64,000 nt of DNA from Candidatus Jordarchaeales archaeon (lineage in GTDB: Archaea > Asgardarchaeota > Jordiarchaeia > Jordiarchaeales > Freyrarchaeaceae), in the NCBI GenBank assembly GCA_038889235.1, contig JAWAHN010000003.1, forward strand, positions 53,703 to 117,702, written 5' to 3'. A program made the translations under genes and the position numbers. The notes below the pieces were generated by a model. It had not been told where the DNA came from. It was given only the letters and a program-made list of their open reading frames with translations, and made no database searches. Of the stretch, positions 6,897 to 46,139 are shown piece after piece; positions within the stretch are counted from its first letter, which is position 1; the number at the start of each line of letters is the position of its first letter.

Positions 6897-8294
6897 ATGG
6901 CAGCTGAAGGCAAATTTAAGCAGCCGTGGCGCGGGGTTCTGTCGCTTCTCACAATTTACGCTATCAGTTACACTGCTTATGCAGTTTTCCTGAACCCAGT
7001 GAAAGGGTTGCTGTCGAGGCTCGTTGTCGGGGATGCCTTCCTTCTAAGGAACCTACTAGAGTACGCTGTCAGTAGAGATCTGGCTGCGCTCCTGGCTCCC
7101 GTGTTGGCGACGCGGTCCGCTGAGGTAGTCGCCCTCAACCCGTTAGGCTACCCATTGGACTGGATGAGCGTAGTGGTCTTCAGCATAGTCTGGTTCATAG
7201 CGATCGCCCTACTTTTCGCCCCCCTGGAAAGGAAGGAGCCTCCGAAGCAACCGAAAACCGGGCTAATAGTTGCATTCCTCTCGCTGGTCCTGGCATTCTT
7301 AACGTTCTGGGTTCTCGGCTCGGTGTTCAGAATGAATGGGTACGAGATGCTGCTGCTGGGCACCTGCGGCTTCCTAGTATTCCCAATCTGGGCCACACTG
7401 TTCAATTACTGGCCCTTTGTTCCAAAGAAGCCGGACGTGCACCCTGCCGTTAGGGGTGCCATCTACACAATGCTTTCCTGGGCTATAACGGTCGCCCTCT
7501 ACTGCATCATTAACATGTTAGCTTGGAGGGAGGCAGTATTCTTCGAAATGTACACTCCCAGCCACGACCTCTTCACAACGCTACTCAGCCCGCTCTTCCC
7601 GTTCAAACACTACGACAAGTGGTTGTCCTTCCTGGTCGCGGTGATCCTAGGGTGCAACATAGTGGGGCTGGTCAACCCCTTCGGAAAGAAGAGCCAGCCA
7701 GCTAGGGGAGGCATAAACCTAGTCATAGCAGCTGTGATCGGTGTAGCCCTCTGGCTTATCCTAATGCCTATTCTGGGCAAAGCCCCCCACTTCTTCACCC
7801 TAACCATAGAAACAATAGTTACAGTGAGGATTCCCCTAGTGGTCACTGTGAGCTCGCCCAGCAACGTGACAGTTTACCTACTCTACGTAATTCTAGCTAT
7901 ACTAATAATTAGGTATGTCTTCGAAATGCACTGGTTCACTGGCACTAGGGGGAGTGTTCTAGCAGTAGTGTCCGCGTTTATAGCCGGCACCCTGCTATTC
8001 TTCGCAACCACAGCTATAACCCCCGTAGCGGTGTTCCTTTCGGGAGCAGATGCGGCCATGTATGCGTCTGGATTACAAGCACTCACCAACGACGCAATCA
8101 TAACCTATATAGGCTACGCTCTCGGGCTGAGGTGGTATGCTGGACCCATGCTGCTGACAGCTCTGAGCTACATGCTAGAATCCCAAGCAGCGCTACAACA
8201 CCTAGCCGTAACCCTCACCTTCGGGTGGTTCGTGCTAGCCAGCATAATGTGGCTCCTAATATACACATCATTCGACCACTGGCCATGGAAGTAA
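6897..8294 (+). CDS. Polytopic membrane protein, paralogue of the one at 26291-27727
   Basis: An integral membrane protein of about 465 residues with roughly 10-12 hydrophobic segments and no family I can name. It begins MAAEGKFKQPWRGVLSLLT, and the paralogue begins almost the same way. Both keep LNPLGYPLDWM, the block GYEMLLLGTCGF, an SHDLFTTLL or GHDLFTTLL loop and a C-terminal FxHWPWK. The conserved Trp/His motifs at loop positions hint at a transporter or membrane enzyme, but nothing in the sequence tells which. The start is ATG 6897, behind GGTGGGGAGAGG. The divergent neighbour is a secreted lipase. Confidence 0.8.
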   Translation: MAAEGKFKQPWRGVLSLLTIYAISYTAYAVFLNPVKGLLSRLVVGDAFLLRNLLEYAVSRDLAALLAPVLATRSAEVVALNPLGYPLDWMSVVVFSIVWFIAIALLFAPLERKEPPKQPKTGLIVAFLSLVLAFLTFWVLGSVFRMNGYEMLLLGTCGFLVFPIWATLFNYWPFVPKKPDVHPAVRGAIYTMLSWAITVALYCIINMLAWREAVFFEMYTPSHDLFTTLLSPLFPFKHYDKWLSFLVAVILGCNIVGLVNPFGKKSQPARGGINLVIAAVIGVALWLILMPILGKAPHFFTLTIETIVTVRIPLVVTVSSPSNVTVYLLYVILAILIIRYVFEMHWFTGTRGSVLAVVSAFIAGTLLFFATTAITPVAVFLSGADAAMYASGLQALTNDAIITYIGYALGLRWYAGPMLLTALSYMLESQAALQHLAVTLTFGWFVLASIMWLLIYTSFDHWPWK

Positions 8295-8309
8295 GCGCAA
8301 AACACCTCC

Positions 8310-8334
8310 TTTTTCTTTTTAAAAAAAGAAAAAA
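8310..8334. terminator. A/T-rich inverted repeat between convergent genes
   Basis: TTTTTCTTTTT is followed directly by AAAAAAAGAAAAA. The two halves pair almost perfectly, and each strand presents a T-run. It sits 16 bases after the membrane protein stop and 100 bases from the stop of the convergent acyl-CoA synthetase gene, so it could terminate both. Confidence 0.55.
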
Positions 8335-8436
8335 GCGGAAATACCATAAATTTAGCGCTGAAATTCTGGCTGCCTGGCTTCTAACCGAGAGTGTTTCTCT
8401 TCATTAAACAGGGAGGCCACGTCTTTCTTTCCCAAT

Positions 8437-41520: not shown

Positions 41521-41946
41521 TTATTCGAACACCTGACTAATTAATTTGCTGACGATTTTGTAAACATACTCGGCTTTTCGAACGGCGTCCTCAGCATCCT
41601 CCCGGTAGTAAAGTTCATCGGGTGGCACCCCGGTCTCTTCGTCGCCATACATAGAGGGTTCCCTCTCTCTACGAAGAATCCTAGAGTACCTCGAGAGGAC
41701 TCCTATCTCCGCCTGGAACCACTCTGGAAACCTGGAAGACTCCCTTCTCAGTACAGGGCCAACGTCATGCCACTTCGGCGGCTCAACGCCGACAAACCTT
41801 AACGCCGCTTTCAAGAGGAGCTCCACAGCCTCCTGGCACTGCCTCACAACGTACGGGTAGTTCCCCCTTTCAAGTGTCTCTTTCGCGTGGTGTATCCTCT
41901 CCTCCGCCTGCCTGAGGTACGACTTAGCCATCGAAGTGTTCTTCAT
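41521..41946 (-). CDS. HEPN-domain protein (putative HepT-like toxin)
   Basis: A helical protein of about 141 residues. The segment AKSYLRQAEERIHHAKETL followed by YPYVVRQCQEAVELLLKAAL is the classical HEPN start, and VEPPKWHDVGPVL is the conserved turn. An RYSRILRRER stretch follows, but a clear Rx4-6H RNase motif is not obvious. Its ATG overlaps the stop of the nucleotidyltransferase gene by four bases (ATGA). HEPN/MNT pairs are abundant archaeal toxin-antitoxin modules; in one studied type the MNT partner adds AMP to the HEPN toxin. Confidence 0.82.
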   Translation of the reverse strand: MKNTSMAKSYLRQAEERIHHAKETLERGNYPYVVRQCQEAVELLLKAALRFVGVEPPKWHDVGPVLRRESSRFPEWFQAEIGVLSRYSRILRREREPSMYGDEETGVPPDELYYREDAEDAVRKAEYVYKIVSKLISQVFE

Positions 41947-42482
41947 ATCTCTATCACGTCCCCGAACTTGTAATCCTTTTTGAGCCTCCAATACCAAGCT
42001 TTCCCGAGCCTAACCCTCTCAGCTCCAAGCTCCTGCAACCTCTCTCTCAACCTCCTTAGAATCCCATCGAAAAACCCATCCCTGTCAAAGAGTACGACCG
42101 CATCTTCAACCATGTCTAAATATAAGGGAGAAAAAACGCGTGCCTCCTCCGGCGTCTTAATAATGGGAGAAAACTCCACGTGGTAACCCATTTCCTCAAG
42201 CTCATCCAACTTCTCACCAAGTTTTTCCTCAACCTCCATAAATAACTCCTGCCTTCTAAAAGCACTCTTAGGCGCCCCCCTGAGAACTATAAGCAGGTCC
42301 ACGTCACTATCCTTCCTAGCCTCCCCTCTCGCAACAGAGCCGTAAACAACAACAGACACGAGGTCCTCCCCAAATTTTTCAAGCAGCCTCTCAACAAGCG
42401 ACGAAAGCAACTTTTCATAAGGCCACCTCAACCTCCACGCACACAACCCCGCCCCCCAAATTTCTCCGATACCACTCTCCAC
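41943..42482 (-). CDS. MNT-type nucleotidyltransferase (putative MntA-like antitoxin)
   Basis: A protein of up to 179 residues with VVVYGSVARGEARKDSDVDLLIVL, fitting the GSx10DxD pattern of MNT antitoxins. FSPIIKTPEEAR and LYLDMVEDAVVLFD follow, the latter with a later acidic residue. It is co-transcribed with the HEPN gene. The annotated GTG at 42482 is doubtful: similarity begins at KLLSSLVERLLEKFGEDL, so TTG codons near 42430 or 42412 may be the real start. It is predicted to neutralise the HEPN partner by nucleotide transfer. Confidence 0.8.
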   Translation of the reverse strand: MESGIGEIWGAGLCAWRLRWPYEKLLSSLVERLLEKFGEDLVSVVVYGSVARGEARKDSDVDLLIVLRGAPKSAFRRQELFMEVEEKLGEKLDELEEMGYHVEFSPIIKTPEEARVFSPLYLDMVEDAVVLFDRDGFFDGILRRLRERLQELGAERVRLGKAWYWRLKKDYKFGDVIEI

Positions 42483-43737: not shown

Positions 43738-44847
43738 TTATGGGTAAGCTTTTGAGCCTATGAATTCTTCCAGAATCTTCGCGGCGGTGGGGCTTTCGGT
43801 TATAACTTCTAGTTCCTGGTAACCGTAGCCTCTCGAGTAAAGTATGTACCTCACCAGAGACTCCCTCGTCTCCTGGTGTTTAATGTACGTCTCAGTAGCT
43901 TTTCCCAGTTTAAACCTTCCAAGCCTAATGTCCTTTACTCCTCCAACTGAGAGGATTCTCCTCAATAGCTTTCTCGCACCCTCGTCCGGTATATCTCTTA
44001 GTGGGAGAATTTTCGCGGCCTTAACTTTCCAAAGGTTACCATGTTCCCCAGCTTTGACGGCATCCCTGCCCAGAATGAGTGCAATCTTCTTAACATCACC
44101 CGAGCTGAAAGCCCTGTAAACAAGCCATCCTGCCGGCGAGAGCATACAGAGGTCTCTCTCCACCCGCTCCAGTAGCGCCCAGAAGTACTTTAAGTCTTCT
44201 CCAAACCTATTCTTGACCTCATCGTACGGCCTAGGCGATTCAATGAGCCACTTTATGTCGTCCAAGTGTTTGATCCAGACGTCAGGGTTAAAGAAGAGCG
44301 GAATTGCAGGGAGGGAGACTATCTCGTTAAACCGCTCATGAATATAGTATACGTCCACCCCGTATAGGAGCGCTGCAATGGTCGCGTAAGCCGTCTCAGC
44401 CTTAAACCCCCCAGTAGCAGCAAGCACAACACCTCCCTCCAGCCTTCGCCCCTCCTCGAATACTTCAACAAGCATGTTTATGAGACTGTTAAGACCGGTC
44501 GTGGAGAACTTTCGCTCGTCATACTTAAGCCCCTTCACCTCTTTGACGCTCACATTGTAACCCCTATCCTCGTAAAACCTCTTTAAAGCTTCAGCGCACA
44601 CCTTCCCCTCAACGGTCTCGGAGTGAAGGAGGACTAGGGTGTCTCCATACTCAAGGATCCTCTCAAGCGTGTTTGTCTCCGCACAAGCCCTGTGAAGCCA
44701 CTGCTCATCTTTCTCGCCCTTAAGGTAGCCAACCAATGCGTCAACAGTACTTTTTTCGTTGCTCAACAACACCTCCTGCCGGACGCCGACATCCCTACAG
44801 TAGTTCGAGAGGAGAGAGGCGCCAACAGTAACCACCACGCGCCTCAA
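43738..44847 (-). CDS. CRISPR-associated CARF-domain protein (Csm6/Csx1-like, APE2256 family)
   Basis: A 369-residue protein. The N-terminal VVVTVGASLLSNY and the segment GGVVLAATGGFKAETAYATIAALLYGVDVYY are the two conserved CARF strands and loops of the TIGR02619 type. They bind cyclic oligoadenylate made by Cas10 in type III CRISPR systems. The C-terminal 170 residues (ERDLCMLSPAGWLVYRAFSS onward) look like a winged-helix plus a further domain ending RESLVRYILYSRGYGY. I see no clear HEPN Rx4-6H motif, so its output could be another nuclease or a transcriptional response. It may also be a ring nuclease. No cas genes or CRISPR array are within the window. Confidence 0.75.
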   Translation of the reverse strand: MRRVVVTVGASLLSNYCRDVGVRQEVLLSNEKSTVDALVGYLKGEKDEQWLHRACAETNTLERILEYGDTLVLLHSETVEGKVCAEALKRFYEDRGYNVSVKEVKGLKYDERKFSTTGLNSLINMLVEVFEEGRRLEGGVVLAATGGFKAETAYATIAALLYGVDVYYIHERFNEIVSLPAIPLFFNPDVWIKHLDDIKWLIESPRPYDEVKNRFGEDLKYFWALLERVERDLCMLSPAGWLVYRAFSSGDVKKIALILGRDAVKAGEHGNLWKVKAAKILPLRDIPDEGARKLLRRILSVGGVKDIRLGRFKLGKATETYIKHQETRESLVRYILYSRGYGYQELEVITESPTAAKILEEFIGSKAYP

Positions 44848-45338
44848 CTAAACCACCCAGAAAAATAATTGGAGAAAAATTTACCTTAAAAATTTTTTCA
44901 AAAAAAGCGCGCAAAAACTAGCCGTGAGAGGCGCAAAACTCCTGTAAAAACCCCCACGGCCAAACTACCACACAGCTAGCCTGAAACCCCTCAGCTCACA
45001 ATCCAGACATCCACCAGCCAGACCCAAGTAATGGCCAGGCAAACTGGGACTTAACCCACCCCTCCAAAATGTGCCCCAGAAGAGAGGAAAAGTGTTCAAA
45101 GTTTTACAACGAGTAGGAAAGCGTTTTCAAGACATATAACATTCAACGAAAAACAGCCACCCTTCCACACAAATCGATCATACCGTGAGCGAAGAAAACC
45201 AGCAAAAGCGAACACATGCACGACGTCACAATTCCCACAAACTCAAAAAGCAAGCAGCCCTAAAACTTGCGAGCAGTTTAAATAGGGCGCCTGGTAGGAA
45301 AAACACGAAAAACACTTAAAAAAGAGGAAAGTTAGAAA
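44848..45338. other. Divergent promoter region, no gene seen
   Basis: About 490 bases between the CARF gene and the repeat-bearing nuclease gene, which point away from each other. An A/T run TTAAAAATTTTTTC near 44885-44900 could serve the CARF gene. The plus-strand TATA box is at 45277. No coding frame or RNA gene is evident. Confidence 0.5.
45277..45284 (+). promoter_or_regulatory. TATA box for the coiled-coil nuclease-like gene
   Basis: TTTAAATA, 55 bases before ATG 45339. Confidence 0.5.
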
Positions 45339-46139
45339 ATGACCCAAATAACCCCAGAACTCTACGAGTTCATAGTCAAAGTTGTAGAGGACAGAGTCAG
45401 AGAAATAAAGGTCACGCGCGAAGAATTCGACAAACTAACAAACTCAGTGAACAAACTTGCCGAGGCCCAGCGCAGAACAGAGGAGAGGCTGGAGCAGCTT
45501 GCCGCCAGAGTTGACCAGCTTGCCGAGGCCCAGCGCAGAACAGAGGAGAGGCTGGAGCAGCTTGCCGCCAGAGTTGACCAGCTTGCCGAGGCCCAGCGCA
45601 GAACAGAGGAGAGGCTGGAGCAGCTTGCCGCCAGAGTTGACCAGCTTGCCGAGGCCCAGCGCAGAACAGAGGAGAGGCTGGAGCAGCTTGCCAGTACCGT
45701 GCGCGAGACTAGGGATGCTTTGTCTAATTTGGCTACACAGGTTGGCCGTTTGAGCGAGGTTGTTGGTTTTGGCTTGGAGGATGTTGCCCGCATTATGGTC
45801 GCTGGGTGGCTTGACGCCTATGAGGGTATTCTTGTTGGGGAGTTCGAGAGGGGATTCTTTGTTGTTGATGGAAAGGAGGTTGAGTTTGATCTTTTTGCTC
45901 GCGGGCGAAACAGTATGGGGGAGGACTTGTTTGTTGTTGGGGAGTGCAAGTCTAGGATTTACGAGAGGGATGTGAGGGCTTTCGTTGAAAGGGTTGAAGC
46001 CGTGAAAAAGAAGTATCCGGAAGTAAAGGTGTACGCTTTCATGTTTGGCTACGTCATCCACCCGAGCGGGGACAAGGTTGCTGAGAAGCACGGGGTTAAG
46101 TTACTTGCTCCATACCGTATACCTGTGAAACAAAAATGA
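45339..46139 (+). CDS. Coiled-coil repeat protein with C-terminal PD-(D/E)XK nuclease-like domain
   Basis: A 266-residue protein starting at ATG behind GAGGAAAG. After about 40 residues it carries 21-residue coiled-coil units (LAEAQRRTEERLEQLAARVDQ) three times and most of a fourth. The C-terminal domain begins around SEVVGFGLEDVARIM. It holds EVEFDLFARGRN, then DLFVVGECKSRI, giving Asp and ExK as in PD-(D/E)XK nucleases. This is the architecture of DUF3782-type archaeal proteins, which are often found in many copies per genome. Whether it cuts DNA is unknown. The truncated gene at 1-452 appears to be a relative with different repeat units. Confidence 0.75.
   Translation: MTQITPELYEFIVKVVEDRVREIKVTREEFDKLTNSVNKLAEAQRRTEERLEQLAARVDQLAEAQRRTEERLEQLAARVDQLAEAQRRTEERLEQLAARVDQLAEAQRRTEERLEQLASTVRETRDALSNLATQVGRLSEVVGFGLEDVARIMVAGWLDAYEGILVGEFERGFFVVDGKEVEFDLFARGRNSMGEDLFVVGECKSRIYERDVRAFVERVEAVKKKYPEVKVYAFMFGYVIHPSGDKVAEKHGVKLLAPYRIPVKQK
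45456..45692 (+). repeat. Tandem 63-bp repeats inside the coiled-coil gene
   Basis: Units at 45456-45518, 45519-45581 and 45582-45644 are identical by eye; a fourth matches for its first 48 bases (45645-45692). Identity at third codon positions shows recent expansion or gene conversion, not only selection on the protein. Confidence 0.9.

Follow-up and report, generated by a model that had tools for sequence, protein, structure and literature searches.

The 64-kb window, that is, the whole stretch of 64,000 nucleotides analyzed here, contains an ORF of 266 codons (positions 45339-46139, plus strand) encoding a coiled-coil protein with a PD-(D/E)XK fold. It raises the question of what such a protein does with a perfect tandem repeat in its stalk, and whether the length of that stalk matters. 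The answer that we favor, and consider probable, is a stand-alone rod from a mostly Asgard, COG5493-like subfamily, in which a homo-oligomer would present clustered nuclease heads, the length being nearly free and the helical phase fixed.

We first describe the repeat itself. TRF detected a single array in the ORF, at 45456-45692 on the plus strand (period 63 bp, 3.8 copies, or 3.76 more exactly, 100% matches). Unit-by-unit comparison located full units at 45456-45518, 45519-45581 and 45582-45644, which are identical at 63/63 positions, and a fourth unit starting at 45645, whose first 48 bp are identical to the full ones; the three identical units and partial fourth of the original prediction are thereby confirmed. 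Each full unit is translated as LAEAQRRTEERLEQLAARVDQ, 21 residues or three heptads; its core columns (L/T/L and Q/L/V) are hydrophobic or small and recur every seven residues, so that the predicted three-heptad coiled-coil step was also borne out. With the codon usage of this genome, the probability that two units share all 21 codons through protein constraint alone is about 10^-8.9, and the array is therefore a product of recent duplication or homogenization. The repeat number was read from a draft MAG-type assembly, in which the 3.8 copies may be collapsed; because of this draft status and of N gaps in two paralogous stalk arrays, the exact copy number is uncertain.

To place the array in its genome, about 2.11 of the 2.14 Mb were scanned for near-perfect arrays (at least 97% match, period of at least 12, at least 60 bp). 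Only eight were found, and the 63-bp array is thus not background. Five of them lie in the stalks of five coiled-coil PD-(D/E)XK genes (periods of 63, 96, 96, 42, and 84 bp), the other three being a CRISPR array, a Pro/Ala linker, and a 291-bp duplication. Since the only array in a 684-aa coiled-coil gene of a different kind is degenerate (75%), perfect arrays go with the coiled-coil PD-(D/E)XK family and not with coiled coils generally. Other copies in the genome, for which a search had been proposed, do exist: four further coiled-coil PD-(D/E)XK genes were found, each with a perfect array.

Several of these loci can be described individually. A canonical PDDEXK_10/DUF3782 paralog at positions 1-452 of the window (minus strand; G000:C3:53206-54157) has a perfect 96-bp (32-aa) stalk array, which is broken by a 97-base N gap at the edge of the window. 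In a second C3 paralog (7482-8436), the unit is also 96 bp long but unrelated, and a similar N gap is present. The fifth coiled-coil PD-(D/E)XK-like gene (G000:C1:173363-174316, minus strand) has a head without a Pfam match; its product shares an N-terminal cap with the C2 paralog and contains a perfect 84-bp x3.0 array, an Asn in motif II, and ExS. As to the arrays outside the family, CRISPR arrays with the repeat GAAACAAAAACAGTCCCCACAAATGGGGATTGAAAG occur at or near contig ends (G000 C1:1-894, C2:870-3755, C3:468333-469965, and C5:1101-1290), the Pro/Ala linker (APPAAPPAAPPAAPPAAPK) is a near-perfect 57-bp x4.2 array at G000:C2:298786-299025, and the 291-bp near-perfect tandem duplication (1.8 copies) lies inside an ORF at G000:C1:135625-136152.

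What kind of protein carries the repeat? The AF2 model (16 homologs, monomer only) predicts a single continuous helix for residues 6-141 (45354-45761, plus strand), which spans cap and stalk and has block pLDDT values of 87-96 across residues 31-120. The N-terminal cap (aa 1-34, MTQITPELYEFIVKVVEDRVREIKVTREEFDKLT; 45339-45440, plus strand) is conserved and kept in all complete relatives. The C-terminal head (45765-46106, plus strand) adopts a PD-(D/E)XK fold according to AF2 and Foldseek, with helices (H) and strands (E) in the order H146-162, E170-176, E179-190, E196-203, H209-225, E230-236, H242-251, and E254-256, which is the topology predicted for DUF1626 (PMC1913061). Modelled alone, the head reached a pLDDT of 91 and a pTM of 0.84, and its top Foldseek matches were all PD-(D/E)XK proteins (EndoMS/NucS, AF1548 (1y88), Cdn1, and Card1). 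A head profile of nine close relatives aligned with a profile of nine PDDEXK_10 domains (hhalign probability 95.6%, E 1.3e-8, 117 columns), pairing D184 and E202/K204 with their counterparts. The PD-(D/E)XK-like reading made from the letters alone is thus upheld by AF2, Foldseek, and hhalign.

A Pfam scan of the 266-aa protein gave no match to PDDEXK_10 (PF07788) at the cut-off of 21.2 bits, and the cut-off for DUF3782 (PF12644; 24.4 bits) was not reached either, the score being 11.4 bits and confined to the coil region. As both cut-offs were missed, the protein represents a divergent subfamily rather than a scored Pfam member; judged by the hhalign comparison, it is homologous to PDDEXK_10/DUF3782 though outside the Pfam cut-offs. 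Family scans with the head alone and a PDB sequence search gave no credible match, and Rfam contained no RNA element for the 45339-46139 interval. Matches to SMC, Rad50, ZorA, JetC, and TMP_2 (Pfam, NCBIfam, and PADLOC) were rejected because they fall on the coil only; those from Pfam and NCBIfam vanished once the head was scanned alone. In the cap, the segment KVTREEF is similar by eye to the beta-layer motif [aliphatic]-A-T-K-[polar]-[DE], and a comparison with the motifs in PMC4786415 suggests a resemblance to the beta layers of DUF3782/DUF16 stalks, which in that work include NFVTKTEF of MPN010; the monomer AF2 model draws an unbroken helix there. Upstream, a TATA-like box (tttaaata, 45277-45284, plus strand) about 55 nt before the ATG is a candidate archaeal promoter of a single-gene unit.

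Is the head a working nuclease? All expected residues are present in the 266-aa protein: the motif I acidic residue E147 in the first head helix (LEDVAR; 45777-45779), the motif II aspartate D184 (EVEFDLF; 45888-45890), and the motif III ExK, E202-C-K204 (GECKS; 45942-45950), all on the plus strand. In the AF2 model and the alignment, D184, E202, and K204 lie in or beside head strands 2 and 3. Among 13 close relatives, nearly all of them Asgard, motif II is N in 10, D in two (L015 and L034), and S in one. The replacement by N casts doubt on catalysis in most members of the subfamily. The ExK is retained in 12/13, the exception being L034 (E202 -> S). With D184 mostly replaced by Asn and E202 by Ser in one relative, catalysis may not be the conserved function of the subfamily. 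In this genome, the two C3 paralogs have D...EIK, the C2 paralog D...EVT, and the C1 member N...EVS. Comparison of these motifs indicates that loss of catalytic residues is recurrent and that the 266-aa protein belongs to the intact ones. The tree of the D -> N change is poorly resolved; by path, the 266-aa protein is nearest to L015, also a D. The term nuclease appears, from these residues, safe for the fold and plausible for the 266-aa protein, and not for the subfamily.

These substitutions make it possible, though we regard it as the less likely case, that the PD-(D/E)XK fold of the head is dead or dying as a catalyst and serves to bind nucleic acid or protein, the whole protein acting as a structural tether and the intact site being a leftover. 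The replacing Asn is strongly conserved in its turn (VQxNLFG), suggesting that a non-catalytic role has been retained, and further losses (E -> S in L034, N plus ExS in the C1 paralog, ExT in the C2 paralog) point the same way. However, the full D...ExK set persists in the 266-aa protein, the Guaymas relative L015, and the two C3 paralogs, and the E and K of motif III hardly vary across the subfamily, which is unexpected under pure decay. Of the two observations named in advance as counting against the original prediction, an invariant repeat number is not what the family shows, whereas loss of the nuclease motif is in part: the motif-II aspartate has gone from those 10/13 relatives.

Stalk length also supports our preferred reading. 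In eight complete members of the subfamily, the distances from cap (REEFDKL) to head (LEDxAR) are 112, 133, 119, 133, 91, 112, 126, and 119 aa. These are five different lengths (91-133 aa), each 0 mod 7; if lengths could change freely by single codons, the chance that four further distinct lengths match the first mod 7 would be about 4e-4 by our own arithmetic, which ignores relatedness and the heptad steps inherent in unit duplication. The phase rule may indeed be mutational in part, since heptad duplication alone yields multiples of 7. Within the subfamily, LAEAQ-type motifs are spaced 14 or 21 residues only. The comparison was widened to 43 loci, comprising the subfamily and PDDEXK_10 members in the Asgard phylum, with arrays scored at 85% identity or above. 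A scored array was present in 29/43 loci, with all periods in frame and unit lengths of 7, 11, 14, 18, 21, 25, 32, 35, and 49 aa, all of which can be written as 7a+11b; for nine distinct lengths, the simulated chance of this is 6e-4. Units outside the filter obey the same formula (14 in L040, 46 in L184, and 28 in the C1 member).

Two near-identical pairs catch the change itself. Over aligned residues, the C2 paralog shows 98.7% identity to its counterpart in G001, a genome of the same genus, and the 35 aa (five heptads) by which the two differ all lie in the stalk. The proteins of G020 and G034, which belong to one genus, share 98.4% identity, and here the difference is 50 aa, or two 25-aa units. 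The in-frame change of stalk length that had been foreseen therefore holds for the family and for these pairs (35 and 50 aa), while the ORF at 45339-46139 offers no strain or same-genus ortholog for comparison.

Could the repeat be selfish or neutral slippage with no functional bearing, or its number an assembly artefact? The assembly is a draft, N gaps lie within two sister arrays, and contigs of relatives break in arrays. We nevertheless consider this unlikely, as the 29/43 scored loci come from many assemblies and are all in frame and in coiled-coil phase, and near-perfect arrays are rare genome-wide and concentrated in the coiled-coil PD-(D/E)XK family. That stalk length is instead a functional ruler or contingency locus, with a repeat number tuned or switched between lineages to set the distance from head to partner, much as coiled-coil spacers do in the specificity subunits of type I restriction systems (PMC5082667), is very doubtful. 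In its favor, perfect arrays occur in 5/5 family genes of this genome, near-identical paralogs differ by whole units, and 5/13 array-bearing subfamily contigs end within the array, an effect expected of unstable or long repeats. Against it, the stalk lengths are scattered over 91-133 aa with no obvious preferred values, no within-species variation was seen, and a spacer of neutral length accounts for these observations more simply. It is equally improbable that stalk length is a selected, evolvable setting, in which rapidly re-sized, phase-locked repeats move the nuclease head by whole helical periods; if true, a contingency-type ruler would operate in five family genes of one Asgard genome simultaneously. 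The nuclease held at a variable distance from a binding partner, as originally imagined, is conjectural; in the data, the phase is fixed and the length loose.

We also examined where relatives occur and what surrounds them. Relatives occur in 11/228 Asgard genomes searched. Those found with a subfamily profile come from MAGs named Jordarchaeia, Baldrarchaeota, Njordarchaeota, Helarchaeota, and Freyarchaeota, along with one Guaymas MAG labelled Thermococci; the genomes with Jordarchaeia relatives belong to the order of the host. These names point to an Asgard archaeon as the host. No ortholog was present in three same-genus genomes (70-83% complete). In one genome, G003, the HD gene that in the window comes after our ORF has an apparent MNT-like gene in the 0.5 kb upstream and no trace of a homologue of our ORF, which thus appears to have been gained or lost at this site. 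No recurrent neighbor genes were found beside relatives, which fits a stand-alone role. A defence operon with CARF, HEPN/MNT, or HD neighbors was rejected because none is conserved beside relatives. As for a type III CRISPR ancillary nuclease, the 266-aa protein has no CARF domain and its CARF neighbor is not adjacent to relatives; the G003 CARF gene sits elsewhere, without a homologue of the ORF. A mobile or viral origin was likewise rejected, as viral contigs, phages, and plasmids yielded no relatives.

In the window, a CARF protein of the APE2256/CARF7-RelE type is encoded at 43738-44847 (minus strand), divergent from our ORF, and its G003 ortholog occupies a different place relative to a magnesium-chelatase-like gene. 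A HEPN/MNT toxin-antitoxin-type pair (41521-42482, minus strand) appears to be kept beside the HD gene in G003. In a Freyarchaeota genome, the subfamily copy L023 (G007:C34, 5734-6438) is broken: its cap and head are split between different frames interrupted by stops, and another fragment of the head lies downstream, from 7769 onward.

The closest known proteins are those of COG5493/DUF1626 (PF07788, PDDEXK_10) with a DUF3782 (PF12644) stalk, which likewise have cap, coiled-coil stalk, and PD-(D/E)XK head in this order, have lost active-site residues recurrently, and have three clear members in this genome. Unlike them, the 266-aa protein has a different cap sequence, its own unit (LAEAQRRTEERL), and the D -> N change in most relatives. 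COG5493 proteins occur broadly in archaea and in some bacteria, and we found no assigned function for them in the literature searched, in keeping with the original description of a type known in archaea whose role is unassigned (PMC1913061; PMC4786415). The solved DUF3782 stalk Tcar0761 (PDB 5APZ, PMC4786415) also has near-perfect internal repeats and, having been solved as a trimer, gives the best indication of oligomer state; its nonad repeats form beta-layers and it has no nuclease head, whereas the 266-aa protein has a pure heptad array, with the beta-layer-like KVTREEF confined to the cap. A direct precedent for heptad steps is RepMP1/DUF16 of Mycoplasma pneumoniae (PMC3472980), with in-frame 21-nt (one-heptad) repeats whose number varies among strains, although these proteins belong to a different lineage without a nuclease head, and variation within species was seen there and not here. 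In SMC arms, coiled-coil length is tied to helical periodicity, as here, but SMC arms also have a super-helical period (about 91-99 aa) and sharply defined length modes (PMC5344682), neither of which was seen in our eight sequences. The nearest solved folds of the head, EndoMS/NucS (2vld and 5gke) and the nuclease domains of Card1/Cdn1/Can2, reach a TM of only about 0.5-0.58, lack a stalk, and have other partner domains (the NucS N-terminal domain and CARF). Phase-locked stalk growth in a COG5493-type family was not found described in the literature searched; the protein family is already known, and the growth pattern appears new.

Taken together, we propose that the 266-aa protein is a stand-alone, soluble, rod-shaped protein with a DUF3782-like stalk and a DUF1626/PDDEXK_10-like head. 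The stalk would be about 17 nm long, with about 3 nm per unit (our own arithmetic, at about 0.15 nm per residue), and would form a parallel homo-oligomer, most likely a trimer by analogy with Tcar0761, so that a single rod would carry a group of two or three heads. These would bind nucleic acid, and the 266-aa protein, whose site is intact, would cut it with a divalent metal. Stalks lengthen or shorten, as the comparisons show, when in-frame tandem units made of whole coiled-coil periods (7a+11b residues) are duplicated or lost; this keeps the rotational phase between cap and head while length drifts, and within this constraint length would be nearly neutral. Expansion would then be slippage or unequal recombination in a register-selected repeat and not a switch. 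Such a phase-held, length-drifting rod is easier to understand as a rigid presenter of clustered heads than as a tuned ruler.

What makes the locus of interest is the phase rule, and the fact that it is concentrated in a single gene family, rather than this lone array. A rule under which length is free, phase is fixed, and units are 7a+11b implies that the stalk works as a rigid, register-keeping rod. The family thereby supplies a natural series of stalk-length variants, and the subfamily with the D -> N change marks where a nuclease fold may have turned into a binding module.
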